Origin: Conyzicola nivalis
GTDB taxonomy: Bacteria > Actinomycetota > Actinomycetes > Actinomycetales > Microbacteriaceae
Assembly: GCF_014639655.1 (NCBI RefSeq)
Contig: NZ_BMGB01000001.1
Location: 2,329,082 to 2,393,081 of the forward strand
DNA: 64,000 nucleotides
Direction of reading: 5' to 3'
In this document: positions 4,375 through 35,538 of the stretch, one piece after another
How the letters are laid out: each line of letters begins with the position of its first letter
How positions within the stretch are numbered: the first letter of the stretch is position 1
Made by a program: the position numbers and the translations under genes
The notes under the pieces: generated by a model
The model's database searches: none
What the model was told of the DNA's origin: nothing
Seen by the model: the letters and a program-made list of their open reading frames with translations, nothing else

Positions 4375-5568
4375 TTACTCCTTGACCAGCTCGGCGATCG
4401 CCGTGACGCCCGCCGCCACCTCGGCGAAACTCGTTGACAACGGCGACAGGCCGAGCCGGATGCCGTTCGGACGACGGAAGTCGGGGATAACGCCGCGCTG
4501 CCAGAGTCGGGGCATGATCGCCTCGAACCCGTCGTGGTCGATCGTCACGTGGCTGCCGCGGCGCCGCTGGTCGCGCGGGCTGGCCAGAACCGCCGAGGGA
4601 AGCAGCTCGTCGACGATCGCCACCGCGTACTCGGTGAGCGCCACGGACTTCGCCCGGACCGCGTCGATGCCGACCTCCTCGATGAGGGCGATCATGTCGC
4701 GCATCGCGAGCATTCCGACGATCGGCGGCGTGCCGCTCGTGAACGCGCGGATCCCCTCGGCGGGCTCGTAACCCTGCCCCATTTCGAAGGGGGTCGCACT
4801 GCCCAGCCAGCCCTGGATCGGCTGGCGCATCCGCTGGTTCCGCGTCGCGACGTAGGCGAACGCGGGCGATCCCGGCCCGCCGTTCAGGTACTTGTAGGTG
4901 CAGCCGACCGCGAGGTCGACACCCCATCCGTCGAGTTCGGTGGGCACGACGCCGGCGGAGTGGCAGAGGTCCCAGAGGATGAGCGCGCCCGCCTCGTGCG
5001 CCAGCGCCGTGAGCGCGGGCACGTCGGCGAGGAAACCGGACCGGTACGACACCGCGCTCAGCACGACGACCGCGGTTGCCGGCGACAGAACCGCGGCGAG
5101 CGCCTCGGGCGTCGGTTCGCCCGAGGCGATCCAGCGCAGCGTGAGGCCGCGCTCGGCCGCGATGCCCTCGAGCACGTAGCGGTCGGTCGGGAAGTTGTCA
5201 CGGTCGATCACGAGCTCGGTTCGCCCCGGACGGGCGTCGACCGCCGCGCGCACGAGCTTGTAAAGCAGCACCGTGGTCGAGTCGCCGATCGTGGTCTGTC
5301 CGGCCGCGGCCCCGAGAGCGACCCGGCCGAGGTCGTCGCCGATCTGCTGGCCGAGTTCGAGCCAGCCGTCGTCCCATCCCCGGATCAGTCGGCCGCCCCA
5401 CTGCTCGGTCATAAACGTCGCGACGCGGTCGACGGATGCCGTAAGCGGGCGCCCGAGGGAGTTGCCGTCGAGGTAGGCGGTCACCGAGGCGTCGCTGACG
5501 AAGAGGTCGCGGTGGCGAGCGAGCGGGTCGGCGTCGTCGAGGGGGCCGGGGGCCAGGTCGGTCGTCAT
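4375..5568 (-). CDS. kynU: Kynureninase
   Basis: This 397-residue pyridoxal-phosphate enzyme cleaves kynurenine to anthranilate and alanine in tryptophan degradation. Family motifs visible are YLDGNSLG (32-39), the aspartate/histidine pair in ILWDLCHSAG (Asp200, His203), and the PLP lysine in CTYKYLNGGPGSPAF (Lys226). Length matches known kynureninases (about 400-420). No dioxygenase or formamidase gene is in the window, so the upstream pathway steps must be elsewhere. The start ATG 5568 is preceded by TAGCGT ending six bases upstream and no ribosome binding site, indicating a leaderless transcript. The neighbour to its right is the divergent terC gene. Confidence 0.95.
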   Translation of the reverse strand: MTTDLAPGPLDDADPLARHRDLFVSDASVTAYLDGNSLGRPLTASVDRVATFMTEQWGGRLIRGWDDGWLELGQQIGDDLGRVALGAAAGQTTIGDSTTVLLYKLVRAAVDARPGRTELVIDRDNFPTDRYVLEGIAAERGLTLRWIASGEPTPEALAAVLSPATAVVVLSAVSYRSGFLADVPALTALAHEAGALILWDLCHSAGVVPTELDGWGVDLAVGCTYKYLNGGPGSPAFAYVATRNQRMRQPIQGWLGSATPFEMGQGYEPAEGIRAFTSGTPPIVGMLAMRDMIALIEEVGIDAVRAKSVALTEYAVAIVDELLPSAVLASPRDQRRRGSHVTIDHDGFEAIMPRLWQRGVIPDFRRPNGIRLGLSPLSTSFAEVAAGVTAIAELVKE

Positions 5569-5665: not shown

Positions 5666-6559
5666 ATGGACTTCGCTCTCGAACTGACGCCCGACCTCCT
5701 CGTAGCTTTTCTCACACTCTTCGTTCTCGAGATCGTTCTCGGCATCGACAACGTGATCTTCATCTCGATCCTCGCGAGCAAGCTGCCCGTCGAGCAGCAG
5801 GCGAAGGCCCGGAACCTCGGGTTGTCGCTGGCCATGCTCATCCGCATCGGACTGCTGTTCTTCGCGTCGTGGATCATCTCGCTCACCAACGACCTGTTCG
5901 AACTGTTCGGCATGGGGTTCTCGGGCCGCGACCTCATCCTCATCGCCGGCGGACTCTTCCTCGTCTACAAGGCGGTTCACGAGATCCACGAGAAGCTCGA
6001 GGGCGGCGAATCCCACGGCAAGGAGAGCGGCAAGGCCGTCACCTTCGGCGCGATCATCGCCCAGATTCTGCTGCTCGACATCGTCTTCTCGTTCGACTCC
6101 GTGATCACGGCGGTCGGCATGGTCGACAACCTGCTCGTGATCATCGTCGCGGTCGTGCTCTCGTTCGGTGTCATGCTCTTCTCCTCCAAGTTCCTCTTCG
6201 CGTTCGTCAACAAGCACCCCACGGTGAAGATGCTCGCCCTCGCCTTCCTGGTGCTCATCGGGTTCACCCTCATCGCGGACGGCTTCGAGGTACACATCGA
6301 CAAAGCACTCATCTACGTTCCGATCGGTTTCGCGATCATCGTCGAGGCGCTCAACCTCACCTACAAGGCCCGCCAGGAGAAGCGCTCCGGCACCCACACC
6401 GATCCGGTCAAGCTGCGCCACGCGTACACGAAGGCCGACGACCACGACGCCGTCGCCGCTGCCACGTCGAACAGCGCCGACTCCGGATCGGTCGGACTCT
6501 CGCGCAAGCCGGTCTCGGGTAAGAACACCGGCGGCGAAGAGCCCTTCGGTCTCGGTTAG
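5666..6559 (+). CDS. TerC family integral membrane protein
   Basis: The 297-residue membrane protein carries the TerC hallmark EIVLGIDNVIFISILASKLP near its N-terminus and a second acidic motif LLDIVFSFDSVITAVGM. Conserved Asp/Asn/Ser residues in these helices are thought to bind metal. TerC proteins are linked to tellurite resistance and, in some bacteria, to manganese export to secreted enzymes. I count about seven to eight membrane segments and a hydrophilic C-terminal tail. An in-frame longer reading is possible, but ATG 5666 fits homologues and has TACAGT (5653-5658) seven bases upstream. The stop overlaps the convergent HNH gene by 4 bp. Confidence 0.92.
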   Translation: MDFALELTPDLLVAFLTLFVLEIVLGIDNVIFISILASKLPVEQQAKARNLGLSLAMLIRIGLLFFASWIISLTNDLFELFGMGFSGRDLILIAGGLFLVYKAVHEIHEKLEGGESHGKESGKAVTFGAIIAQILLLDIVFSFDSVITAVGMVDNLLVIIVAVVLSFGVMLFSSKFLFAFVNKHPTVKMLALAFLVLIGFTLIADGFEVHIDKALIYVPIGFAIIVEALNLTYKARQEKRSGTHTDPVKLRHAYTKADDHDAVAAATSNSADSGSVGLSRKPVSGKNTGGEEPFGLG

Positions 6560-8220
6560 CCGAGCTGGCGTCGAGCCGGGGGGCCGACGCAGGGGCCGCG
6601 CGGGGCCCGAGGCGGGAGCCGCGGGGGCCCACGCGGGGCCCGACGCTGGAGCCTTCGCTCGAGCGTCGCGCCCCAAAACGGAGTCGGCCCGATCGCGACG
6701 TCGGTCTCGGGCCAATCGCCGGGCGGCGGCGCACCGGCTCGGGTGGAGCCATCCGGCAGTTCAGAGGGCCGCGTTAGTTCAGAGGCCCGCGCCGTACCCG
6801 GCGGCGCACCGGACCGTGCGGCACCTTGCGTCGGCGCACCGACCGTGTTCGCCGGGTAGGTGACGTAGGTGCGGCCCGCCCGTGTGGTCCACTCGATGCG
6901 GCCGTCACCGGCATTGCGCAGCCGAACCCGCGTGTGATGCTTCCGGTTGTGGTGCGCCCGGCAGAGATGACTGAGGTCGCCCGCGCAGGTCGTTCCACCG
7001 CGGGCGAAGTCGACGGTGTGGTCGACGTCGCAGGTGACGGCGGGGCTGTTGCATCCCGGCGCTCGACAGACCTCGTCACGCACCCGCAGAACCAGTCGCA
7101 GGTCGGCCGGCACGGCGTACTTCGTCCGGTCGAAGTCGAGGATCGCGCTCGTCACCGGGTCGGTGAGCACGCGGGTGAAGCTCGGGGCATCCGCCGCGAG
7201 TTGGCGCGCCACCTCTGGATCGATCGGCCCGTATCCCTCGAGGTTGGCCGGCTGTTGCGACTTGCCGAGGAGCGTGAGCATCGGCACAGTCACGAGAACC
7301 TTGGGCCGGATGCCGTGCCCGGTGCCGGTGCCGGTAGCCGAGCCAGAGCCAGAGCCCGCGCTAGAGCCAGAGCCCGAGCCCGAGCCCGAGCCGGAGCCGG
7401 AACCACCCTCGGCAGCACAGGTATCGCCGTCGAGCAGCAGGTCTCCGAGTGCGTCGGCCCGCTTCTGGGCAAGCGTGCGGTCGTCGCCGGGAGCGTCTTG
7501 GGAGCGCCCGATCTCGGTCAGGCGCCCGTACGCGGCAACGCCGACCTCGGCACTGAGGTGCACCCCAAGGAACGCCATTCCGTCGGGCAGCGGGTCGAGC
7601 CACACCCGGCGCTCTTCGAGGCCTTTCTGCCTGCGGTCGGTGATCGACTCGGGATGCAGCACCTCGCGCTTCTTGCGGGCGACCCGCACGAATTTGGCGA
7701 CGGTGAGCGTCTTGGCGAACGGCAGCAGCTCGCGCTCGTAGTCGGCGGCCGCCTCGTCGGGCAGCGTCGCCGTCTGTTCGACGATCACCTGGGCGTGACG
7801 GTAGCTGATCTCGCCCTCACGAAGCGCTGCGTGCGTCTCGGTGAGCACGTTGACCAGCTGTTTGGACTCGTCGAACAGCCTGTCGGCCGTCGACTCGGGA
7901 ATGCGCAGCGCGCAGGCCAGCTCGAAGAGCAGTTCGCGCCGGCCGCGCACCGCGGGAGTCCAACCGTGCGGCTCACCGCCCGCGGCCACCGGACCCTCCG
8001 CCGCGACCATCGACTCGCTCCACACCCGCAACTGGTCGATCTGGGAGGCACGCAGCGCCATCGAGGCGCCGACGATGCGTTCGGCCGACTGGGCCGAAGA
8101 CACCAGCCCGTCGAACGTCGCGAGCATGGTGCGGGCGAGCGCGTCGCCCTCCACAAGCTCGTGTTCAGCGGCGTCAGCGCCGCCCGGCGGACTCTCGTTC
8201 GCTCCCGTTGGTTCGTTCAT
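6556..8220 (-). CDS. DUF222 domain-containing HNH endonuclease (13E12-type)
   Basis: The 554-residue protein combines an N-terminal DUF222 helical region with a C-terminal HNH nuclease motif: CRAPGCNSPAVTCDVDHTVD, then HLCRAHHNRKHH. The paired Cys and His residues fit a zinc-supported HNH fold. This large actinobacterial family has no established role; links to mobile DNA are suspected. Between the two domains lies a Ser-Gly repeat of about 30 residues encoded by hexanucleotide repeats. After the HNH domain a long Pro/Arg-rich tail looks unstructured. The start ATG 8220 was preferred over an upstream in-frame ATG at 8259 because the DUF222 part begins soon after it; this choice is uncertain. 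Confidence 0.85.
   Translation of the reverse strand: MNEPTGANESPPGGADAAEHELVEGDALARTMLATFDGLVSSAQSAERIVGASMALRASQIDQLRVWSESMVAAEGPVAAGGEPHGWTPAVRGRRELLFELACALRIPESTADRLFDESKQLVNVLTETHAALREGEISYRHAQVIVEQTATLPDEAAADYERELLPFAKTLTVAKFVRVARKKREVLHPESITDRRQKGLEERRVWLDPLPDGMAFLGVHLSAEVGVAAYGRLTEIGRSQDAPGDDRTLAQKRADALGDLLLDGDTCAAEGGSGSGSGSGSGSGSSAGSGSGSATGTGTGHGIRPKVLVTVPMLTLLGKSQQPANLEGYGPIDPEVARQLAADAPSFTRVLTDPVTSAILDFDRTKYAVPADLRLVLRVRDEVCRAPGCNSPAVTCDVDHTVDFARGGTTCAGDLSHLCRAHHNRKHHTRVRLRNAGDGRIEWTTRAGRTYVTYPANTVGAPTQGAARSGAPPGTARASELTRPSELPDGSTRAGAPPPGDWPETDVAIGPTPFWGATLERRLQRRAPRGPPRLPPRAPRGPCVGPPARRQLG
7318..7405. repeat. Hexanucleotide microsatellite encoding a Ser-Gly linker
   Basis: Within the HNH gene, units close to GAGCCC and GAGCCA (plus strand) are repeated about a dozen times and encode alternating Ser and Gly on the minus strand, ending in Ala/Thr-Gly pairs. 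All visible variants keep the six-base period, so copy changes would lengthen or shorten the linker by two residues without shifting frame. Confidence 0.85.
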
Positions 8221-8306
8221 GCCGACAGTGCAATTGTTACCACCGACATTCCCGTGCACCCCGCCGAAACCTGTGGAAAGTCGCGCGGTTGTGCATAACT
8301 GCCGGC

Positions 8307-8711
8307 CTACGACACCGACTTCACCGCCGCACCCGAGACAGCCGCACCCGAAACCGCCGCCTCCGAGTCGGCCGCACCCGAATCATCCGCCCCACGTCCC
8401 TTCAGCAGCTTCAGCCCCACGACGCTCCCGACGATCCCGACCAGGAACAGCACCCGCAGCACCGTCACCACCTCTGAACCGGTGGCCATTCCGTACGCGA
8501 CGGTGAGGGCGGCCCCCGTGCCCGCCCAGACCGCGTACGCGGTGCTGATCGGGATGTGCTTCGCGACGTACGCCAGCGTCCCCATGCTCGCCACGAGCGC
8601 GACGGCGAACACGACGCTCGGCACGACCTCGGTAAAACCCTCGCTGGCACCGAGCGCGGTCGCCCAGACCGCCTCGAGGCCCGCGCTGACGAACAGGATG
8701 ATCCACGGCAT
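8307..8711 (-). CDS. Small multidrug resistance (SMR) family protein, second subunit of a pair
   Basis: The 134-residue protein has four membrane helices and the SMR signature MPWIILFVSAGLEAVWATAL with the essential glutamate at residue 13, plus ISTAYAVWAGTGAALTV. SMR proteins exchange protons for cationic drugs, quaternary ammonium compounds or guanidinium. Its ATG shares one base with the stop of the upstream SMR gene (TAATG), so the two are probably translationally coupled and work as an antiparallel heterodimer, like EbrAB or YkkCD. An extra hydrophilic C-terminal tail of about 30 residues, made of SGAAV-like repeats, is absent from its partner and from typical SMR proteins. Confidence 0.92.
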   Translation of the reverse strand: MPWIILFVSAGLEAVWATALGASEGFTEVVPSVVFAVALVASMGTLAYVAKHIPISTAYAVWAGTGAALTVAYGMATGSEVVTVLRVLFLVGIVGSVVGLKLLKGRGADDSGAADSEAAVSGAAVSGAAVKSVS

Positions 8712-9025
8712 TAGCTCACTACTTTCAGTCCGATGACGCACCCGATGAGCACGACCAGCAGGGCCGCACGCCCCAGTGACAGAACTTCCTTCTTGCGCAC
8801 GACCGCGACGATCACGGTCAGCACGGCGCCGATCCCGACCCAGACGGCGTAGGCGGTACCCACGAAGATATCGGTCATCGCGTAGGCCAGCCCCGCCATG
8901 CTGAGCACGAGCGAGACCGCGAAGAGCGCCGTCGGTTTCGGGCGTTTGAGATTGTCGGATGCACCGAGCGCGGTAGCCCAAACGGATTCGAGCACCCCCG
9001 ATGCGATCAGTACGACCCACGTCAT
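8711..9025 (-). CDS. Small multidrug resistance (SMR) family protein, first subunit of a pair
   Basis: This 104-residue four-helix protein starts MTWVVLIASGVLESVWATAL, with the proton/substrate-binding glutamate at residue 13, and contains GTAYAVWVGIGAVLTVIVAV. The length is standard for the family. It is the first gene of a two-gene SMR operon. The start ATG 9025 is preceded by AAGGAG with adequate spacing. The promoter region is shared with a divergent TetR gene and contains repeated inverted GCACA/TGTGC half-sites, so repression by that TetR is likely. Substrate cannot be told from sequence; guanidinium and quaternary ammonium compounds are the usual candidates. Confidence 0.92.
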   Translation of the reverse strand: MTWVVLIASGVLESVWATALGASDNLKRPKPTALFAVSLVLSMAGLAYAMTDIFVGTAYAVWVGIGAVLTVIVAVVRKKEVLSLGRAALLVVLIGCVIGLKVVS

Positions 9026-9050
9026 TTCGAACTCCTTAAACCTTCTCGCG

Positions 9051-9107
9051 TATTCGCACACCTGTGCCATAACCGAATCTAGCACATTCCGTACGACTGT
9101 GCGAATA
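9051..9107. promoter_or_regulatory. Candidate TetR operator region between SMR pair and tetR
   Basis: TATTCGCACA at 9051-9060 recurs as its exact inverse TGTGCGAATA at 9098-9107. Inside, GCACA-CC-TGTGC (9056-9067) is a compact palindrome, and GCACA (9082-9086) pairs with TGTGC (9098-9102). The half-site GCACA therefore appears at several places covering both divergent promoters. This arrangement suits repression of the SMR genes and of tetR itself. Confidence 0.65.
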
Positions 9108-9113
9108 TGGGGT

Positions 9114-9704
9114 ATGCCGAAGATCGTGGACACCGCCGAACGCAACCGGATCGTCTCCGAGGCGGCCTGGCGGGTGATGGTGCGCGACGGGCTCACCGCG
9201 CTGTCCGTGCGCAACGTCGCCGCCGAGGCCAACCTGCCCCCGTCGTCGCTGCGGTACACGTTCCCCACCCAGGCGAGCGTGCGCGACAGCGCCGTCGCGC
9301 TGCTCGTGGAGCGCATGGCCGAGCGGGTGGCGCGGCACGGCGAGAGCGGCGCAGACGACACGGCCGAAGCAGACGCCAGCACCGCCCGAGCCATCCTGCT
9401 CGAGCTCCTCCCCCTCGACGACGAGCGCCGCGTCGAGATGGAGGTCTCGCTCGCCCTCGGCGCGATGGCGGCCACCGACCGCGCCCTCTGGCAGGCGCAC
9501 CAGAGAACGCACCTCGCCGTGCGCGAGGCGTGCGTGCGTGCGCTCGCACTGCTCGGCGCCGATCCGCGCGACGTCGACGGCACCCACGCCCTCATCGACG
9601 GCCTCGCGCTGCACCTCGTGCGGCAGGCACCGACGACGGGCGACGCCTGGGCACTGCGCGCGCTCGACGCCCACCTGCACCGGCTGCGCACCCCGGCCGG
9701 CTAG
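9114..9704 (+). CDS. TetR family transcriptional regulator
   Basis: The 196-residue protein has an N-terminal TetR helix-turn-helix (NRIVSEAAWRVMVRDG, then LSVRNVAAEANLPPSSLRYTF, about residues 10-48) and a divergent C-terminal ligand domain. TetR repressors release DNA on binding a small molecule, often a substrate of the pump they control. Its divergent position to the SMR pair, with inverted repeats in the 88-bp gap, makes those genes the likely target. The start ATG 9114 is where homology to the DNA-binding domain begins; no strong Shine-Dalgarno is seen. Downstream is the low-GC island. Confidence 0.88.
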   Translation: MPKIVDTAERNRIVSEAAWRVMVRDGLTALSVRNVAAEANLPPSSLRYTFPTQASVRDSAVALLVERMAERVARHGESGADDTAEADASTARAILLELLPLDDERRVEMEVSLALGAMAATDRALWQAHQRTHLAVREACVRALALLGADPRDVDGTHALIDGLALHLVRQAPTTGDAWALRALDAHLHRLRTPAG

Positions 9705-9844
9705 CGGAACACCCGCCGGCCAAGGCGACGGCGGCGGCGACGAGCGGCATTGGCGCTACACGGCACTTTTTGGCCTATCGGATAATGGCTCTTCCCGATT
9801 ACCCGCAAAGGCCGATATGGGCGAGATCTCGCGCGACCCCACCC

Positions 9845-9867
9845 GTCCAGCGTTTTACTTGCTGGAC
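9845..9867. repeat. Inverted repeat GTCCAGC/GCTGGAC with a further direct copy
   Basis: GTCCAGC (9845-9851) and GCTGGAC (9861-9867) form a 7-bp stem with a 9-base loop. GCTGGACA occurs again at 9917-9924. The three half-sites lie in the left part of the low-GC island, upstream of the small gene, and could be protein-binding sites. Confidence 0.55.
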
Positions 9868-9927
9868 ACATTGCGATGGGCGTGTCTATTTGCTTAGTAC
9901 ATGCTCACGCGCACAAGCTGGACATGC

Positions 9928-9954
9928 AAAAACCCCCGCACTTCAGGGCGGGGG
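9928..9954 (-). terminator. Intrinsic terminator for leftward transcription
   Basis: Read on the minus strand, CCCCCGC (9954-9948), an 8-base loop and GCGGGGG (9939-9933) form a 7-bp GC stem followed directly by TTTTT (9932-9928). This is a classic rho-independent terminator for transcripts coming from the right, for example read-through from the POT transporter gene. On the plus strand there is no T-run, so it would appear only as a leader hairpin before the small gene. Confidence 0.7.
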
Positions 9955-9985
9955 CCGTGCATTCAACTAAAGAGAGGAGAAACAA

Positions 9986-10105
9986 ATGGCGAAGCGTGTT
10001 AAACGCAAACCGTTTGAGACTGCTATCAGTCTCGTTACCAAGATGCTTGCAACATCTGGTTTCGGTGGATTGATGGTTGTTCTTGGTATCTACTTTTCCC
10101 GGTAG
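9986..10105 (+). CDS. Small membrane peptide, 39 residues, function unknown
   Basis: The gene has a textbook ribosome binding site, GAGAGGAGAAACAA before ATG. It encodes a basic N-terminus (AKRVKRKP) followed by one hydrophobic segment (about residues 12-37) containing SGFGGLMVVLGIY. The layout of a cationic head plus one transmembrane helix with small residues resembles phage holin-like or type I toxin peptides, but also many small structural membrane proteins; I recognise no family. Codons such as GTT, AAA, TTT and CTT are common here and rare in neighbouring genes, and GC is 46%. The gene is therefore foreign in origin. A weak promoter may be TTGCGA (9871) with TAGTAC (9895). Confidence 0.65.
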   Translation: MAKRVKRKPFETAISLVTKMLATSGFGGLMVVLGIYFSR

Positions 10106-10119
10106 CTATGCCAACTAGG

Positions 10120-10185
10120 TTGACACATCTCAATAGTGACACATTTGTACCACAGCTAGTGACGAACTATTGGTGTGTCACTAGC
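10120..10185. repeat. TGACACA repeats and a 9-bp inverted repeat downstream of the small gene
   Basis: TGACACAT occurs at 10121-10128 and 10137-10144, 16 bp apart, and TGTGTCA (the inverse) at 10174-10180. GCTAGTGAC (10155-10163) and GTCACTAGC (10177-10185) form a perfect 9-bp stem with a 13-base loop. Spaced repeats beside a dyad recall iteron or recombinase-binding regions, but no replication or recombination gene is present. Confidence 0.6.
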
Positions 10186-10189
10186 GGTG

Positions 10190-10232
10190 AATACGGAGTT
10201 AGTTCCAGTGATACTGGAACTAACTCCGTATT
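10190..10232. repeat. Perfect 20-bp inverted repeat with a 3-base loop
   Basis: The arms 10190-10209 and 10213-10232 are exact reverse complements, separated only by GAT. The arm begins AATACGGAGTT and ends TTCCAGT. Such a long perfect hairpin without mismatch in a 41% GC stretch is unlikely by chance. No T-run follows on either strand, so it is not a standard terminator. A recombination site, a protein-binding dyad or an RNA-stabilising structure are possible. Confidence 0.9.
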
Positions 10233-10401
10233 ACATTTCGTGAAAATGAACTTATTCGCACGGTGCCTGCATACCCTCCGGAGGCTGTCACCTAATCGCG
10301 CTCCAACATCAAAATCGGGGGTGCTTCCGAGACAGCCCGAAAGGCAGTTGCGGACCTCGAAGACGGGTCGCCGATAGAGTCCGACCTCAGCGCCCGCCGG
10401 G

Positions 10402-11862
10402 CTACCGCACCCCGCGCATCATCCGCAATACCGGTCGCGCGAAGGCGACGAGCACCGCCCCGATCACCACCGCGATCGTGCCGATCACGCCGAAGTAGGG
10501 CACCTCGTTCTGCGGGTCGTATAGGCCCGCGAGCTGCCCCGACGCCGCGGAGCCCAGGGCCACCGACAGGAAGAACAGCGCCACCATCTGGGTGCGGAAC
10601 CGCGCGGGCGCCAGCTTGGTCGACACCGACAGCCCGATCGGCGAGAGCAGCAGCTCGGCGACCGTGAACACCAACAGGATCAGCACCAGCGCGAGCAGCG
10701 GCGTCCCGTTCGCGCCGGTCGCCACGAACGGCAGGAAGAGCAGGAAGCCGAGGCCGACACCGATCGTGCCGAGTCCGAACTTCACCGGCGTGGTGGGCTG
10801 GCGCGTGCCGAGCCGGGTCCACAGTGCCGCGAACACGCCCGACAGCACGATGATGAAGATCGGGTTGATCGACTGCACCCACGACACCGGGAACTCCCAG
10901 CCGAACAGACTGCGGTCGAGCCGTTCGTCGGAGTAGATCGTGATCACCGTGAACTGCTGCTGGTAGATCGACCAGAAGGCCGCGCTCGTGAGGAAGAGCG
11001 GGATGAACGCGAACACCCGGCTGCGTTCGTCCGAGGTGAGCCCGGCCGACGACAGGATCACCACGAAATACGCGACCGCGGCGAGCGCCGTCACCACGAT
11101 CACGATGATCGCGAGGTTCTCCGCGGTGATGAGTCCGGCCAGCACGAGCACCACGACCGCCACCACGACGACGACGGTCGCGACGATCACCAGCGGGTAG
11201 CGTTGCCGCGGCAGCGGGTTGGGGATCTCCCGCGCGACATCCGGCAGCCTCTTGCGGCCGAACGCATACTGCACGAGCCCGGCCGCCATGCCGACCGCCG
11301 CGAGGCCGAACCCGAAATGGAACCCGGCGGTGGTCTGCAGCAGGCCCGTGAGCAGCGGCCCGAAGAACGCGCCGAGGTTGATGCCGAGGTAGTAGAGCGA
11401 GAATCCGGCGTCGCGGCGCGTGTCGTCGGCCGAGTAGAGCGTTCCGACGATCGAGGTCGCCGTCGCCTTGAGCCCGCCGCTGCCGAGCGCGATGCAGATG
11501 AGGCCGACCCCCACGCCCGCGAATCCGGGCAGCACGGCGAGCGCGATGTGCCCGACCATGACCACCGTGGCGCTGATGAACAGCACCCGCTCGCTGCTCA
11601 GCAGGCGGTCGGCGACCCAGGCGCCGAGCACCGTCGCGAGGTAGACCCCGCCGCCGTACGCGCCCACGATGCCCGCCGCCACGGTCTGGTCGACGCCGAG
11701 GCCGCCGTCGGCCACCGAGTAGTACAGGTAGATGAGCAGGATGCCCTGCATGCCGTAGAACGAGAACCGCTCCCACGTCTCGACTCCGAAGAGGGTGGCG
11801 AGGGCCCGCGGTTGCCCGAAGAAGCCGGTGTCGCGCGCGACGCCGCTGTCAGTGTGGCTCAT
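10402..11862 (-). CDS. POT family proton-dependent oligopeptide transporter
   Basis: The 486-residue membrane protein starts MSHTDSGVARDTGFFGQPRA and carries the POT proton-coupling motif ETWERFSFYG (ExxERFxYYG type) in helix 1, and SLYYLGINLGAFFGPLLTG, the second POT signature. These transporters import di- and tripeptides using the proton gradient; about 14 helices are visible. ATG 11862 was chosen over longer in-frame readings because it directly precedes the conserved N-terminus and is preceded by GGGGG. It follows the mocR-type gene on the same strand by 10 bp, so the two may be co-transcribed. Its 3' side faces the low-GC island and its leftward terminator. Confidence 0.93.
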   Translation of the reverse strand: MSHTDSGVARDTGFFGQPRALATLFGVETWERFSFYGMQGILLIYLYYSVADGGLGVDQTVAAGIVGAYGGGVYLATVLGAWVADRLLSSERVLFISATVVMVGHIALAVLPGFAGVGVGLICIALGSGGLKATATSIVGTLYSADDTRRDAGFSLYYLGINLGAFFGPLLTGLLQTTAGFHFGFGLAAVGMAAGLVQYAFGRKRLPDVAREIPNPLPRQRYPLVIVATVVVVVAVVVLVLAGLITAENLAIIVIVVTALAAVAYFVVILSSAGLTSDERSRVFAFIPLFLTSAAFWSIYQQQFTVITIYSDERLDRSLFGWEFPVSWVQSINPIFIIVLSGVFAALWTRLGTRQPTTPVKFGLGTIGVGLGFLLFLPFVATGANGTPLLALVLILLVFTVAELLLSPIGLSVSTKLAPARFRTQMVALFFLSVALGSAASGQLAGLYDPQNEVPYFGVIGTIAVVIGAVLVAFARPVLRMMRGVR

Positions 11863-11872
11863 GCCCCCAGAG

Positions 11873-13297
11873 CTACACCCTCGGTGGCGCCTGCGCAAAC
11901 GCACGCGCCCGGTCGAGCGCGCGGGCCAGCCTCTCGACACCCTCCGGAATAAGATCCGCGGATGTCTCGCCGAACGTCAGCCGCAGGTGCGGTCCGTCCG
12001 GCTCGGCCGGGAACCACGCGCGCCCCGCGGTCACGGCCACGCCATCGGCGAGCGCGAGCCCAGCCAGCGCGACATCGTCGACCTGGTCGGGCAATCGCGC
12101 CCACAGGTGCATGCCCCCGCGCGGGCGCACGGCGACGGCGAGCTCAGGTAGCTTCGCGGCGAGACTCGAGACCAGCGCGTCGCGCCGCACGCCGAGCTCG
12201 GCCGAGACCTTGCGTTTGTGGGTGGCCCAGGCCGGCGAGTTCACGAAGTCGGACGCCGCATCCTGCAGCGGCCCGGCGACGTAGAAGTCTTCCAGCGCCT
12301 TGGCCGAACGCAGCCGCGAATAGGCCGCGCCCTTCGCGACGAGGGCGGCGACGCGCAGCCCCGCCGCTGCCGACTTGGTGAGCGACCGGATGTGCACGAC
12401 GTGCCCGTTCGGGTCGGCGCTCGCCAGCGACGCCGGGGCGGGACGTTCGATCGCCAGGTCGTGCGCGTAGTCGTCTTCGATCACGAACACCGAGTAGTGC
12501 TCGGCGATACGCATGAGTTCGGCGCGACGCTCGGCGGCCATCGTGACGCCCGTCGGGTTCGCGAACAGCGGCTGGGTGAGGATGACCCGGGCGTTGCTGC
12601 GCTCGAGAATCGCGGGCAACAGGTCGGTGCGCATACCGCGGTCGTCCATGGGTACCGGCGCGACATCCAGACCATAACTGCGGGCGATCGAGATCGCGCC
12701 CGTGTAGGTGGGGCTCTCGAGCACTATCGACTCCCCCGGCCTGGTGAGCGACCGGATGGCGATCGACAGCGCGGCCTGGCCGCCCGAGGTGATCATGACG
12801 TTGGACGCGTCGACCCCGCCGATCTCGCGTGCGAACCACTGGCGCAGGCTCTCGCGCCCCTCGGCGGGGACCCGCCCCCAGCTGCCCGGGCGGCGCACCG
12901 CCCGCGTCATCGACGCCGACAGTGCGGCGGACGGCACCAACGCGTCGTCGAGGTAGCCGCCGGCGAGACGGATGACGCCCGCCGCCGGTTTCGCGAACAG
13001 CGACAGCGTGCTCGAGACGTCGAGCGGACTGTGCCCGCCGAGGGCCGCCTGCTGCCACGACGTGTCGGCCAGTTCGGCCGGTTGGGCGGCCCGCGCGACG
13101 AACGTGCCCGACCCCGGCCGGGCGGTCACGAGGCCCTCCGCGCTCAACTCGCGCACGACCGCCTGCACGGTGAGCGGCGAGACGCCGTGCTGCTGTTGCA
13201 GCGACCGCACGCTCGGCAGACGGTCGCCGGGGGTCGCGGATGCGACGAGTCCACGAAGCGCTCGCGATAGTGCTCGGGTGCTGTTATCGTCATCCAT
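11873..13297 (-). CDS. MocR family regulator (GntR DNA-binding domain fused to aminotransferase fold)
   Basis: The 474-residue protein has a GntR winged helix at residues 5-70 (DRLPSVRSLQQQHGVSPLTV, GLVTARPGSGTFVAR), then a fold-type I aminotransferase domain with SGGQAALSIAIRSL, QPLFANPTGVTM, FVIEDDYAHDL and the PLP lysine region SLTKSAAAGLRVA. MocR proteins bind PLP or a PLP adduct and regulate vitamin B6, amino-acid or transport genes, usually the divergent neighbour. Here the start codon (ATG 13297) overlaps the start codon of the divergent EamA exporter, and a symmetric GTTATCGT/ACGATAAC dyad flanks both. The POT gene follows on the same strand. No Shine-Dalgarno is present. Confidence 0.9.
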   Translation of the reverse strand: MDDDNSTRALSRALRGLVASATPGDRLPSVRSLQQQHGVSPLTVQAVVRELSAEGLVTARPGSGTFVARAAQPAELADTSWQQAALGGHSPLDVSSTLSLFAKPAAGVIRLAGGYLDDALVPSAALSASMTRAVRRPGSWGRVPAEGRESLRQWFAREIGGVDASNVMITSGGQAALSIAIRSLTRPGESIVLESPTYTGAISIARSYGLDVAPVPMDDRGMRTDLLPAILERSNARVILTQPLFANPTGVTMAAERRAELMRIAEHYSVFVIEDDYAHDLAIERPAPASLASADPNGHVVHIRSLTKSAAAGLRVAALVAKGAAYSRLRSAKALEDFYVAGPLQDAASDFVNSPAWATHKRKVSAELGVRRDALVSSLAAKLPELAVAVRPRGGMHLWARLPDQVDDVALAGLALADGVAVTAGRAWFPAEPDGPHLRLTFGETSADLIPEGVERLARALDRARAFAQAPPRV

Positions 13298-13313
13298 GAA
13301 AGCTCACGATAAC
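13283..13313. promoter_or_regulatory. Symmetric divergent promoter/operator with overlapping start codons
   Basis: GTTATCGT (13283-13290) and its inverse ACGATAAC (13306-13313) are separated by 15 bases that hold both start codons, which overlap within CCATG. Each arm includes TATCGT, a TAnnnT-type -10 box. It lies 5 bases before the rightward ATG and 8 bases before the leftward ATG. Both mRNAs would therefore be leaderless, and one bound regulator dimer, probably the MocR protein, could block both. Confidence 0.7.
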
Positions 13314-14282
13314 GTTATTGCCCCTCCGGCGGTAACGCCGCCGGCCGTTTCGCGCATCTGGATACCGGGCGCCGGACTCGGATTTCTCGGCGTGCTGGAC
13401 TTCAGCTTCTCGCTGCCGGCCAACAAGCTCGCGGTCGACGGGATCGACCCCTTCTCGATCACGATACTGCGCGCGGCCGCGGCCGGGCTGCTGGCCGTCG
13501 GCTATCTCCTCGCCGTGCGCGCCCGCGTGCCCCGCCGGGCCGACCTGCGCGACCTCGCGCTGTCGTCGCTCGGCGTCGTCATCGGCTTTCCGCTGTTCTC
13601 GTCGCTGGCGCTCGTCACGAGCGGATCGGGTCACAGCGCCGTGACCCTCGGTCTGCTGCCCGCACTCACCGCGGTGTTCGCCGCGCTCGTCGGCGGCGAG
13701 CGCCTGCCGCGCGGGTTCTGGCTCGCGAGCGGCGCGGGCGTGGTGGTGCTCGTCGGCTACCTGCTCGTGCACCAGTGGGCGGAGACCGGTGCTGTCGCCG
13801 TGAGCGTCGGCGACTTCTGGATGCTCGCGGCGGCCGTCAGCGCCGGTTTCGGCTACGCGATGGGCGGGCGGCAGGCGAAGGTGATGGGCGGCGCTCGCAC
13901 CGTGTCGTGGTCGATCGTGCTGGTGCTGCCCGTTTCGGCGCCCCTCGCGATCGTGGTGCTCGCGACGCAGCAGTTCGACTGGACGCCCGGCGTCATCGCC
14001 GGCATGGTCTACGTCACGCTGATCTCGCAGTTCCTGGGCTTCTTCGCCTGGTACGGCGGACTGGCAAGGGGCGGCATCGCCCGCGTCGGCCAGCTGCAGC
14101 AGATCCAGCCGTTGCTCACGCTCGTCTGGGCTTCGCTACTGCTGGGCGAGGCCTTCGACCCGTGGACGATCGTCGTCGGCATCGCGATCGCGGTGTTCGT
14201 CTGGCTCGCCCAGCGGGCGCGGTTCACGGCGCCGACCCCCGCGCCCGACGCCCCACCGAAAGAGCCGGTTCCGGCGCCGTGA
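13296..14282 (+). CDS. EamA/DMT superfamily transporter
   Basis: The 328-residue protein has ten hydrophobic segments in two EamA repeats (about residues 20-145 and 165-305), with LPANKLAVDGIDPFSITILRAAAAGL and SGHSAVTLGLLPALTAVFAALVGGE typical of the family. Such drug/metabolite transporters export amino acids or metabolites. The divergent MocR regulator sharing its start region suggests the cargo is related to a PLP-linked ligand, perhaps an amino acid. ATG 13296 lacks any ribosome binding site and has TATCGT five bases upstream, so it is probably leaderless. The last codons form the left arm of a 16-bp stem. Confidence 0.88.
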   Translation: MKAHDNVIAPPAVTPPAVSRIWIPGAGLGFLGVLDFSFSLPANKLAVDGIDPFSITILRAAAAGLLAVGYLLAVRARVPRRADLRDLALSSLGVVIGFPLFSSLALVTSGSGHSAVTLGLLPALTAVFAALVGGERLPRGFWLASGAGVVVLVGYLLVHQWAETGAVAVSVGDFWMLAAAVSAGFGYAMGGRQAKVMGGARTVSWSIVLVLPVSAPLAIVVLATQQFDWTPGVIAGMVYVTLISQFLGFFAWYGGLARGGIARVGQLQQIQPLLTLVWASLLLGEAFDPWTIVVGIAIAVFVWLAQRARFTAPTPAPDAPPKEPVPAP

Positions 14283-14319
14283 GCCCACCGCGGCGGGGTC
14301 ATTGCGCCGGAACCGGCTC
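14262..14319. terminator. 16-bp perfect hairpin ending the EamA gene
   Basis: GAGCCGGTTCCGGCGC (14262-14277) and its exact inverse (14304-14319) enclose 26 bases containing the stop codon. It lies between the converging eamA and rocD genes and could stop transcription from both sides, though there is no T-run. The right arm sequence recurs exactly at 63515-63530. Confidence 0.65.
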
Positions 14320-14331
14320 ATCTGGCTGAAG

Positions 14332-15537
14332 TCAGGCGCCGAGTTCCACCAGCACCGCGTCGAGCTGCGCGACAGCAAAGTCGAGGTCGGCTTCGGATGC
14401 CACGATCGGAGGCGCGAAGCGGATCGTCGAGCCGTGCGTGTCTTTCACGAGCACGCCCCGCTGCATCAACGCCTCGCAGACCTCCCGGCCGGTGGCCAGT
14501 GCCGGATCGATGTCGACTCCGGCCCAGAGTCCGGCGCCGCGCACCTCGACGACTCCCCGGCCGATGAGCGACCGCAGGCCGGCCTGCAGGCGCTCCCCGA
14601 GCATCCGGGCACGCTCCTGCATCTCTCCCGTCGCGAGCAGCTCGACGACCGCGAGGCCGACGGCCGCGGCGAGCGGGTTTCCGCCGAAGGTGGAGCCGTG
14701 TTCGCCCGGGCGCAGCACGCCGAGGACGTCCTTGTCGCCGACGACCGCCGACACCGGCAGGATCCCGCCGCCGAGCGCCTTGCCGAGCAGGTAGAGGTCG
14801 GGCACGACACCCACGTTGTCGCACTGGAACGTGGCACCGGTGCGGCCGAGGCCCGACTGGATCTCGTCGGCGATGAACAGCACGTTGCGTCGGGTCGTTA
14901 TCTCGCGCACGGCGGGCAGGTATGACTCCGGCGGCACGACGATGCCGGCCTCGCCCTGGATCGGCTCGATCAGCACGGCGACGGTGTTCTCGTCGATCGC
15001 GGCTTCAAGTGCCGCGGCGTCGCCGTAGGGCACGCTCACGAAACCGGGCGTGAACGGACCGAAGTCAGCTCGCGCCTGCTCGTCATTGCTGAAGCTGATG
15101 ATCGTGGTGGTGCGCCCGTGGAAGTTACCGTCGGCGACGATGATCTTCGCCTCGTTCGGCTTGACGCCCTTCACCCGGTAGCCCCAGGCGCGGGCGATCT
15201 TGATGCCCGACTCCACGGCCTCGGCGCCCGTGTTCATCGGAAGCACCATGTCCTTGCCCGCGAGGTCCGCGAGCGCCGCCACGAACGGGCCGAGCTGGTC
15301 GTTGTGGAACGCGCGACTGGTGAGCGTGATGCGGTCGAGCTGGTCTTTGGCCGCCTTGACGAGGGCCGGATGCCCGTGGCCGAAGTTCACCGCCGAGTAC
15401 GCCGCCAGGCAGTCGAGGTAGCGGCGGCCGGTCACGTCGGTGACCCACGCGCCGTCGCCGCGCGTGACGACGACCTCGAGCGGGTGGTAGTTGTGCGCGG
15501 CGTGCTGGTCTTCCTGGGTCAGAAACCCACTGCTCAC
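14332..15537 (-). CDS. rocD: Ornithine aminotransferase
   Basis: The 401-residue class III aminotransferase transfers the delta-amino group of ornithine to 2-oxoglutarate, giving glutamate semialdehyde. Motifs include NTGAEAVESGIKIARAWGY (102-120), the PLP-contacting ADEIQSGLGRTG (Asp224) and the lysine in LLGKALGGGILPVSAV (Lys253). GTG 15537 is the preferred start because AAGGAGG lies eight bases upstream and the length equals typical RocD; an upstream in-frame ATG at 15603 would add 22 unconserved residues. The dimethylargininase gene lies immediately upstream on the same strand. With PutA elsewhere in the window, the product can be oxidised to glutamate. Confidence 0.93.
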   Translation of the reverse strand: MSSGFLTQEDQHAAHNYHPLEVVVTRGDGAWVTDVTGRRYLDCLAAYSAVNFGHGHPALVKAAKDQLDRITLTSRAFHNDQLGPFVAALADLAGKDMVLPMNTGAEAVESGIKIARAWGYRVKGVKPNEAKIIVADGNFHGRTTTIISFSNDEQARADFGPFTPGFVSVPYGDAAALEAAIDENTVAVLIEPIQGEAGIVVPPESYLPAVREITTRRNVLFIADEIQSGLGRTGATFQCDNVGVVPDLYLLGKALGGGILPVSAVVGDKDVLGVLRPGEHGSTFGGNPLAAAVGLAVVELLATGEMQERARMLGERLQAGLRSLIGRGVVEVRGAGLWAGVDIDPALATGREVCEALMQRGVLVKDTHGSTIRFAPPIVASEADLDFAVAQLDAVLVELGA

Positions 15538-15614
15538 GTTAGTAACCTCCTTCGCAGGCTCAGTCGGCGCTGGGGTCGCGAAATCGCTGGCGCGACTTCT
15601 CATAGCTCCACCGC

Positions 15615-16490
15615 TCACGACCGAAGCTCCAGCGTGCAGCACTTCACTCCGCCGCCGCCGAGCAGCAGCTCGGAGAGGTCGACGCCGATCGGGTTGTAGC
15701 CACGCTCCTTGAGCTGGCGCTCGAAGTCTTTCGCGCGCTTCGCGATGACGACGTTCAGCCCGTCGCTGAAACTGTTGAGGCCAAGAACCGCGGCATCCTC
15801 TTCGTTCACGATGATGGCGTCGGGGTAGCGCTCGCGCAGAATCGCGAGGCTAGCCTCGTCGAACGCGCTCGGCAGGTAGGCGATGTTGGGGGCTTGCACT
15901 GAGCCTGTCGAAGTGTCGACCACAGGCTGGGGATCGAGCACGGCGATGGCCGTGTCCAGGTGGTAGAAACTCGGGTTGATCAGCTTCAGCGTGATCACCG
16001 GACGCCCGAAGATCTCGGCCATCTCTTCGTGGCTGTTCGAGGCGCTGCGGAAGCCGGTGCCGGCGAGGATGACGTCGCCGACGAGCAGGAAGTCGCCCTC
16101 GCCCTCGTTGATGTTCTTGGGCTCGCGCACCTCGAAGCCGTTGTCGCCGAACCACTTCATGTAGGCGGGGCCCTCGGGCTGGCGCTCGGGGTGGGTGAAG
16201 CTCGCGCCATAGGCGATGCCGTCGAGCACGAAGCCGCCGTTGGCCGCGTAGACCATGTCGGGCAGGCCGTCGATCGGGTCGACGAGCTTCACATCGAAGC
16301 CGAGGTCGACATAGGTCTGATAGAGCGTCTCCCACTGCCGCACGGCGAGGCTCGTGTCGGTGGGGACGGCGGGGTCCATCCACGGGTTGATCCGGTAGAC
16401 GACGGTGAAAAAATCGGGGCGGCACATGAGGATCGTGCGCTTGCTGGCGACGCGCGTCGGGGCGCTCAGGGATGGCTCGATGAGGGTCAT
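15615..16490 (-). CDS. ddaH: Dimethylargininase (DDAH) / amidinotransferase-fold hydrolase
   Basis: The 291-residue protein belongs to the guanidine-modifying pentein fold. It shows the N-terminal MCRPDFFTV, the substrate motif DMVYAANGGFVLDG, the active-site histidine region NPSFYHLDTAIAVL and the C-terminal catalytic cysteine in GGGVKCCTLELRS. DDAH hydrolyses methylated arginines to citrulline; arginine deiminase-like activity is an alternative. Coupling with rocD and a divergent Lrp regulator fits arginine/ornithine breakdown. ATG 16490 follows GGAGCC with GAGACT six bases upstream. A dispersed repeat (15898-15920) is inserted in frame as DTSTGSVQ in a loop after DPQPVV. Confidence 0.88.
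   Translation of the reverse strand: MTLIEPSLSAPTRVASKRTILMCRPDFFTVVYRINPWMDPAVPTDTSLAVRQWETLYQTYVDLGFDVKLVDPIDGLPDMVYAANGGFVLDGIAYGASFTHPERQPEGPAYMKWFGDNGFEVREPKNINEGEGDFLLVGDVILAGTGFRSASNSHEEMAEIFGRPVITLKLINPSFYHLDTAIAVLDPQPVVDTSTGSVQAPNIAYLPSAFDEASLAILRERYPDAIIVNEEDAAVLGLNSFSDGLNVVIAKRAKDFERQLKERGYNPIGVDLSELLLGGGGVKCCTLELRS
15898..15920. repeat. Dispersed GAGCCTGTCGAAG repeat, copy 1 (inside ddaH)
   Basis: ACTGAGCCTGTCGAAGTGTC is a partial copy of the repeat also found inside the AcuI-like gene and hemH. It is translated in frame as part of a surface loop. Only one arm of the palindromic repeat is retained here. Confidence 0.75.
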
Positions 16491-33980: not shown

Positions 33981-34014
33981 GGTAACGCCCCGGCAGCTGG
34001 GCCGGGGCGTTACC
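33981..34014. terminator. 14-bp bidirectional terminator-like hairpin
   Basis: GGTAACGCCCCGGC (33981-33994) and its exact inverse (34001-34014) enclose AGCTGG. It sits between the converging trhO and small membrane protein genes. The stem is very stable but lacks a T-run. Confidence 0.75.
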
Positions 34015-34023
34015 TGGAAACGA

Positions 34024-34353
34024 CTACGGGCAGGTGACCTGCACGCCCTCGGCGGTCTCGACGACCGTGCCGGAGGCGACGCCCGCGCAGGACTCCTGCA
34101 GCAGCTCGACGGCCGCGATGCCCGCGGTGATCGCGAGGATGACGAGGATGACCTGGATCACGAACAGCACGAGACCGATGATGATCGCGGCGAGCGCGAA
34201 GCCGTTGTTGTAACCGGCCTTCTTCGACTTCGAGCGGGCGACGAAGCCAACGATCGCGCCGACGATGGAGAGGAAGATCGCCAGCACGAGGGCGACGATT
34301 CCGAGGGTCTTGCCGGGATCGGTGCCGGCGGGCGTGTTGTTGACTTCAGACAT
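34024..34353 (-). CDS. Small DUF4190-like membrane protein
   Basis: The 109-residue protein has two hydrophobic segments (TLGIVALVLAIFLSIVGAIVG, about 16-38, and FALAAIIIGLVLFVIQVILVIL, about 52-78) joined by a basic loop, then a short extracytoplasmic tail with two cysteines. This resembles small DUF4190-type proteins often of unknown function in actinobacteria. CAGGAG precedes ATG 34353 at a normal distance. It stands alone, divergent from pfkA across 156 bp. Confidence 0.75.
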   Translation of the reverse strand: MSEVNNTPAGTDPGKTLGIVALVLAIFLSIVGAIVGFVARSKSKKAGYNNGFALAAIIIGLVLFVIQVILVILAITAGIAAVELLQESCAGVASGTVVETAEGVQVTCP

Positions 34354-34509
34354 GGAAACTCCTGTTTTCTGGGTGAAGCGCGGTTGATAAGAATGTGAAT
34401 CGATCCACTTTATAGGGAAACTCTCAGCTTTGGCCATGGGCAGATCTATCCACATCGCGGTGAGCACCCCCGCACGGGTTACCCGGCACGCGTACGCCAT
34501 GATGGAGTC

Positions 34510-35538
34510 ATGAAAATCGGCATCCTCACCAGCGGCGGCGACGCGCCCGGCCTGAACGCTGTTATCCGTGGAATCGTCTACACCGGGATCGCCACTGGGA
34601 AGTGCGAGGAGTTCGTCGGATTCATCGGCGGCTGGAAGGGCGTCGTCGAGGCCGACATCATCCCCCTCGGCCGTCACGAGATCAAAGGCATCCACAAGCA
34701 GGGCGGCACGATCCTCGGCACCTCGCGCACCAATCCGTTCGACGGCAACGGCGGCGTCGAGCGCATCAACGAGGTCATGCGCGACAACGGCATCGACGCG
34801 ATTATCGCGATCGGCGGCGAGGGCACGCTGGCCGCGGCCAAGCGCCTCACCGACGCCGGCATCAACATCGTCGGAGTGCCGAAGACGGTGGACAACGATC
34901 TGGATGCCACGGACTACACCTTCGGCTTCGACACCGCCGTGCAGATCGCGACCGACGCCATGGACCGCCTCCGCACCACGGGCGACTCCCACGGCCGCTG
35001 CATGATCGCCGAGGTGATGGGCCGCCACGTCGGCTGGATCGCGCTGCACTCGGGCATGGCCGCCGGCGCCCACGCGATCCTCATCCCCGAACAGAAGACG
35101 AGCGTCGACCAGATCATCGAGTGGGTCACCTCGGCCCACGACCGCGGCCGCGCGCCCCTGGTCGTGGTCGCGGAGGGCTTCTCGCTCGACACCATGGACG
35201 ACGCCCACAGCGAGCGCGGACTGGATGCCTTCGGCCGCCCCCGGCTCGGCGGCATCGGCGAGCTGCTCGCCCCCATCATCGAGGAGCGCACGGGCATCGA
35301 GACCCGCGCCACGACCCTCGGCCACATCCAGCGCGGCGGAACGCCCAGTGCCTACGACCGCGTGCTCGCGACGCGGCTCGGCATGGCGGCGCTCGACGCC
35401 GCGATCGCCGGCCGCTGGGGTCACATGGTCGGCCTGCGCGGAACCGACATCATCACCGTGCCGTTCGCCGACGCGCTCGGCAAGCTCAAGACGGTTCCGC
35501 AGCAGCGCTACGACGAGGCGCGCATCCTCTTCGGCTGA
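34510..35538 (+). CDS. pfkA: 6-phosphofructokinase, ATP-type
   Basis: The 342-residue enzyme phosphorylates fructose 6-phosphate in glycolysis. Motifs are TSGGDAPGLN (8-16), GGEGTL (102-107), PKTVDNDL (124-131) with the catalytic aspartate, and MGRHVGWIAL. The glycine at position 105 in GGEGT is the residue associated with ATP use; pyrophosphate-dependent relatives have Asp there, while the PKT lysine is shared with the PPi-type group. This mix is typical of actinobacterial group III ATP enzymes. A short GGAG precedes ATG 34510. The following gene starts 34 bp downstream from its own -10 box. Confidence 0.95.
   Translation: MKIGILTSGGDAPGLNAVIRGIVYTGIATGKCEEFVGFIGGWKGVVEADIIPLGRHEIKGIHKQGGTILGTSRTNPFDGNGGVERINEVMRDNGIDAIIAIGGEGTLAAAKRLTDAGINIVGVPKTVDNDLDATDYTFGFDTAVQIATDAMDRLRTTGDSHGRCMIAEVMGRHVGWIALHSGMAAGAHAILIPEQKTSVDQIIEWVTSAHDRGRAPLVVVAEGFSLDTMDDAHSERGLDAFGRPRLGGIGELLAPIIEERTGIETRATTLGHIQRGGTPSAYDRVLATRLGMAALDAAIAGRWGHMVGLRGTDIITVPFADALGKLKTVPQQRYDEARILFG

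Follow-up and report, generated by a model that had tools for sequence, protein, structure and literature searches.

Between a tetR-family gene and a gene for a POT-family peptide transporter, the chromosome of Conyzicola nivalis carries a short island of low GC content. The question that this locus raises is whether the island is a working gene brought in from elsewhere, the debris of a mobile element, or a structured non-coding site. The window referred to below is the whole stretch of 64 kb that was analyzed (C1 2329082-2393081), part of a 3.34-Mb genome in three contigs. Our preferred answer, to which we give about an even chance, is that the island is a cassette with one gene, coding for a small membrane peptide, that came in by horizontal transfer and is laid out like a phage moron. 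The main rival is a decayed scrap in which the open reading frame (ORF) arose by chance.

The best two-state fit within positions 9001-11500 placed the low-GC segment at 9853-10315, with 47.1% GC against 69.1% around it and a log-likelihood gain of 38.5. The preliminary description had drawn the low-GC region wider, from 9760 to 10330; its extent holds for the fitted segment, whereas 9760-9852 is not clearly inside it. The lowest GC windows of 120, 155, 300, and 500 bases in the 64 kb all fall in the island, whose minima are 42.3% at 300 bases and 48.2% at 500 bases, compared with at least 56.7% and 59.2%, respectively, in the rest of the window. A recount gave 45.8% for the ORF (9986-10105) and 41.3% for the 155 bases after it, reproducing the earlier values of 46% and 41%. 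The second lowest 500-base region (34126-34625, 59.2%) lies near a 14-bp hairpin at 33981-34014, the second longest perfect short-loop hairpin.

Table 1 Features of the island and its surroundings, in window positions
Feature	Position	Strand	Basis and remarks
Kynureninase-like gene	4375-5568		E 3.6e-68, slightly below curated cut-off
YkoY/TerC-like membrane protein ("terC")	5666-6559		Sub-cut-off YkoY-family match; name from reading
tetR-family gene (TetR_C_6), upstream of island	9114..9704	+	Divergent from two SMR efflux genes
Perfect 7-bp dyad GTCCAGC / GCTGGAC, 9-nt loop	9845..9867	.	Sequence; left island edge
Low-GC island	9853..10315	.	Two-state segmentation, 47% vs 69% GC
Predicted leftward intrinsic terminator, GC stem then GTTTTTGC	9926..9955	-	Terminator prediction, folding
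Ribosome-binding site AAGAGAGGAGAAA	9970..9982	+	Sequence; AGGAG-type, scored in shuffles
39-codon ORF MAKRVKRKPFETAISLVTKMLATSGFGGLMVVLGIYFSR, likely coding	9986..10105	+	Shuffles and model; basic head, one hydrophobic helix
Imperfect long hairpin	10114..10189	.	Folding; arms carry most TGACACA repeats
Perfect 20-bp dyad, 3-nt loop	10190..10232	.	Candidate bidirectional terminator or 3' stabilizer, no T-run
POT-family peptide transporter	10402..11868	-	Convergent with island gene
Ornithine-oxo-acid transaminase (rocD)	14332-15642		Follows the variable interval

The ORF is preceded by AAGAGAGGAGAAACAA, and the strong ribosome-binding site (RBS) and the basic head ascribed to its 39-residue peptide are present in the sequence as claimed. 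The best 19-residue Kyte-Doolittle mean of the peptide is 1.59, and a single-sequence AlphaFold2 model (mean pLDDT 75, pTM 0.34) is helical at residues 9-24 and 26-38; a single membrane helix is probable. GC by codon position is 0.49/0.44/0.46 in the ORF, unlike both the POT gene (0.66/0.46/0.96) and terC (0.60/0.35/0.91). When 9760-10330 was shuffled 2000 times with dinucleotides preserved, 90% of the shuffles contained an ATG ORF of 39-100 codons, so ORF length is uninformative by itself; together with an AGGAG-type RBS, such an ORF appeared in 4.75%. When the ORF had to combine an RBS, a length of 25-100 codons, and a hydrophobic segment of 19 residues with a mean of at least 1.5, 24 of 5000 shuffles qualified with an ATG start (0.48%) and 52 of 5000 with any start (1.04%). 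These shuffle criteria were set, and the hydrophobicity criterion was added, only after the ORF had been seen, and the initial cut-off had been a stricter 1.6, which 0.3% of shuffles reach and which the real ORF, with its 1.59, narrowly misses. The rarity of the combination, found in 0.5-1% of shuffles, is suggestive evidence for coding, and we therefore consider the ORF likely to be a real gene, short of proof. Conservation at the codon level cannot be shown, because no relative of the peptide was found.

The search of phage and plasmid records proposed in the preliminary description yielded no relative: tblastn with the peptide, at E up to 10, found nothing among phages (50,697 records) or plasmids (72,556 records). 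At the DNA level, blastn of 9740-10340 produced chance-level pieces only, in 13 plasmid and 10 phage records, the phage matches being 23-45 bases long at E 0.2 or worse. Seven of 299 family genomes matched the peptide at E up to 0.1, C. nivalis itself included and the best other at E 0.012; among class genomes, the count was 2 of 394 at E up to 0.05, again including its own. Of 398 family genomes, 6 matched the DNA of 9926-10260 (E up to 0.01); one was C. nivalis itself, and in the other five the matches were pieces of 27-55 bases. Six pattern scans of viral contigs were without a match, and a seventh gave one unrelated hit, a basic ORF sharing only the head of the peptide. The repeat block TTGACACAT..ATAGTGACACA was absent from genome contigs and viral contigs in pattern scans, and no second copy of 9700-10400 was present in its own genome, save the hairpin matching itself. 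PADLOC, NCBIfam, and PHROGs contained no family match for the peptide and Pfam gave a single one, below the threshold; none of the solved structures matched it, and Pfam on hand-read frames of the island flanks found nothing. Rfam on 9000-11000, at E up to 1, gave two matches, both under the gathering score. Distant relatives may exist, since scans for exact patterns pick up only close ones and a query of 39 residues is weak. The phage or satellite remnant envisaged earlier found no sequence support in the peptide, DNA, or viral-contig pattern searches.

Several candidate origins were rejected. The likeness to an MMPL/Patched-type permease fragment (PF02460) reached 18.6 bits, below the cut-off of 23, at E 0.0017, and a derivation from Patched/MMPL or MetI-like proteins (the latter a reading of L007) had weak matches only. 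Seven weak peptide matches outside its own genome fall within larger reading frames (82-501 aa) or within one of 46 aa that is interrupted by a stop, and we take them for chance membrane-helix likeness. The peptide core KPFETAISL gave 12 genome-contig matches in unrelated frames or contexts, which look like chance, about six being expected by our own estimate. At 9787 stands GGCTCTTC..., which resembles an ISL3-type insertion end motif; the 17-mer, with at most one mismatch, occurs in 4 of 199 genomes, the present one included. The three other sites fall in a dapC gene, an amidase-like frame, and an ABC-transporter-like frame (the last two named by reading), and the likeness is therefore attributed to chance. 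The alignment of 9785-9853 to DapC_actino, with a score of 35, begins exactly at the seed and is gappy with little gain beyond; the intact dapC of the same genome (C1:70184) and five dapC genes of genus mates score 15-21 against this stretch, and a dapC fragment was rejected as a selection effect.

The near neighbors of the island encode SMR, TetR, POT, GntR-aminotransferase, EamA, and DUF222 proteins, with no phage genes or phage homology recognized among them. Five genus mates were compared over the interval at about 6573-14330, which is empty in two and filled with other genes in three. In G001 and G005, terC is followed directly by rocD (72 and 243 bases between them, respectively), so the interval is absent there; among the matches listed, G005 keeps one of 47 bases. 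In G002 and G003, the stretch from the kynureninase-like gene to rocD is occupied by other genes; G004 carries there the kynureninase-like gene, the POT gene, and further genes. The POT gene was matched in one of the five, at 80% identity. It adjoins the kynureninase-like gene in G004 (L023 2123-4840; window 10402-11868), the two being almost 5 kb apart in the window, with other genes between them. In the genus, the only matches to 9700-10400 beyond the C. nivalis genome were three short pieces (23-33 bases, window 9717-9749), in G002 and G003, and the island is absent from all five genus mates, of which G003 is 82% and G004 63% complete. The tetR gene gave, among the matches listed in the DNA comparison, a single 39-base match, in G002, and on this basis tetR is taken to be absent from the genus mates. 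The SMR/TetR module also occurs in three family genomes (L027, L028, and L029). Neither of the two readable loci, L028 and L029, has a low-GC stretch behind tetR (L027 ends at a contig edge); at most about 160 bases separate tetR from the next gene, and over the following 1200 bases every 150-base window has at least 58% GC. The module thus occurs elsewhere without the low-GC stretch, which indicates that the island is not part of it and was acquired separately.

These comparisons uphold the view of the island as an insertion or foreign cassette, given five genus mates in which the interval is absent or differently filled and two tetR-module loci without the low-GC stretch. The suggested comparison with related genomes shows the island in none of the five genus mates, but the genes around it are variable as well, so that no empty site defines the exact ends of the insertion. 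Two further observations were made along the way. A long out-of-frame reading frame in tetR (9114-9704) gives significant translated matches (E down to 2e-27) to family tetR loci, which can mislead six-frame searches where the GC content is high. A repeat of about 70 bases at 15544-15617 is dispersed in G001, G002, G004, and G005 at about 80-94% identity and in at least dozens of places, with three tandem copies at G001:C2:173446-173654.

Inverted repeats are dense around the ORF. The leftward terminator reported earlier is borne out by two overlapping predictions, against 0.6 expected in shuffles, with a stem at 9949-9932; in plus-strand RNA, this stem folds into a hairpin (z -2.9) some 15-20 nt upstream of the RBS. 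The perfect 20-bp dyad was likewise found; among perfect hairpins of the window with a loop of 3-10, none is longer, and the runner-up has 14 bp; folding of 10180-10240 gave z -8.8. For the imperfect hairpin, 10110-10189 gave z -2.3, and 3 of 200 shuffles fold as well. A 9-bp perfect dyad, also claimed, was not found as such; what was found is the 7-bp dyad (arms 9845-9851/9861-9867) and a 10-bp pair, TAGTGACACA/TGTGTCACTA, at 10134-10143/10174-10183. Repeated TGACACA and GCTGGAC sites do form local clusters, largely as hairpin arms, but neither motif is enriched over chance in the window: TGACACA occurs 4 times (3.75 expected), with 3 in the island, and GCTGGAC 15 times (14.6 expected), with 3 at 9845-9923.

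Under the preferred reading, an AT-rich cassette would have arrived recently between the tetR and POT genes, in a chromosome stretch where the genus appears to swap genes freely. Recent acquisition is argued from the composition step, the absence in relatives, and the codon positions unlike those of the host; no integrase, transposase, or target duplication marks the island. Its sole plausible gene would encode the 39-residue single-pass membrane peptide. The mRNA would come from a promoter that our scans do not recognize or from read-through of tetR, and would start with a GC hairpin followed by an exposed strong Shine-Dalgarno site; the perfect 20-bp hairpin would end or protect it. The peptide would enter the cytoplasmic membrane with its basic head inside and may act there, for example on membrane potential or phage entry. 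The combination of RBS, ORF, and helix, together with the intact perfect hairpin, argues mildly for a working unit. The stand-alone small-peptide cassette suggested at the outset is, among the readings then offered, the best that remains, with coding short of proof and no relative found.

Deviant GC content is typical of morons. They are described as accessory, independently transcribed loci in phage genomes (PMC7067206, PMC6469090). The island resembles them as an extra gene of deviant GC with terminator-like hairpins around it, set between unrelated genes. It differs in having no recognized phage genes or promoter, and the resemblance is one of layout only; consensus scans found no promoter-like site, and the strong 20-bp hairpin, a candidate terminator, lacks a T-run. 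The Fst/par system is described as having two convergent RNAs that share a bidirectional terminator and direct repeats, and the Fst/Ldr signature as comprising a transmembrane helix, a W, a PXXXG-type motif, and a charged C-terminus, the W and P varying between members (PMC7472228). Like Fst/par, the island has a gene followed by strong hairpins, with repeats nearby, and the encoded peptide would have about 30-40 residues and a single membrane helix. In contrast to Fst, its peptide shows no sequence match and, by eye, no W, PXXXG, or charged C-tail, and no antisense promoter was seen; in Fst/par the start site is blocked by pairing at the repeats, which in the island are located 3' of the gene. 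Homology to Fst/Ldr toxins, or their signature, was found neither in PADLOC, PHROGs, and NCBIfam, nor above the cut-off in Pfam, nor by eye. ORFan small membrane-protein genes are likewise short, AT-rich, and without relatives or database matches found; nothing tested contradicts this label, which is a description rather than a family.

The main rival, which we consider less likely, is that a phage, plasmid, or insertion element left a decayed, non-functional scrap, with an ORF produced by chance and with hairpins that once served as terminators. The lack of homologues, of a recognized promoter, and of clear ends, the frequency of long ATG ORFs by chance here, and the variable location all accord with such a remnant; it fits poorly with the rare RBS/ORF/hydrophobic-segment combination, with a 20-bp hairpin that is perfect and undecayed, and with collections of phages, plasmids, and viral contigs that gave no convincing match. 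It is highly improbable that the island is an origin of replication or transfer, or a non-coding element of the MITE type, in which the hairpins serve as recognition sites. Such a site would account for several hairpins within 400 bp and the locally repeated TGACACA, and a perfect 10-bp inverted pair (9829-9838/10433-10442) brackets the island; this pair is at chance level, its right arm falls within the POT gene, and another pair of equal length (9623-9632/10261-10270) fails to bracket the island. The neighbors examined include no rep, relaxase, or transposase genes, its own genome holds no other copy, target duplication was not seen, and the repeat block and both short motifs behave as reported above. 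The hairpins are all that speaks for the cryptic origin put forward earlier.

A unit of type I toxin-antitoxin kind, which we regard as unlikely, would pair the peptide, as a toxin acting on the membrane, with an antisense RNA that runs leftward, ends at 9955-9926 just upstream of the Shine-Dalgarno site, and blocks translation. Its general toxin trait, a small hydrophobic peptide, is present (39 aa, 1.59, helical model), with the single helix and structured transcript ends to match, and the terminator stands where an RNA that runs leftward from within the island would overlap the Shine-Dalgarno site and leader before it ends. However, no sigma-70-type promoter was found on either strand of 9600-10500 (0.4 expected in shuffles) in consensus scans, which miss part of the actinobacterial promoters. 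TANNNT boxes are absent from the plus strand between 9705 and the ORF start, and the minus strand of 9705-10402 has a single one, at 10254, on the far side of the 20-bp hairpin. The leftward terminator may merely end transcription of the convergent POT gene, and the peptide is by eye unlike Fst, with its basic head and a single Arg at the C-terminus. The type I toxin mooted earlier fits in size and layout, but the scans and searches showed neither an antisense promoter nor a family match.

A more elaborate possibility, which we hold to be improbable, is that the island represents an undescribed mobile or phage-derived single-gene unit of actinobacteria, encoding a membrane-active peptide for toxicity or phage exclusion, with translation controlled by the 5' and 3' hairpins and by an antisense RNA ending at the terminator before the Shine-Dalgarno site. 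Among the papers listed in full-text literature searches, none was devoted to type I toxins in the host's group. If expressed, the peptide would be one more orphan membrane peptide, a class often missed by annotation pipelines. Should the island prove a mere scrap, it would still mark the terC-rocD interval as a hot spot of gene exchange in the genus.
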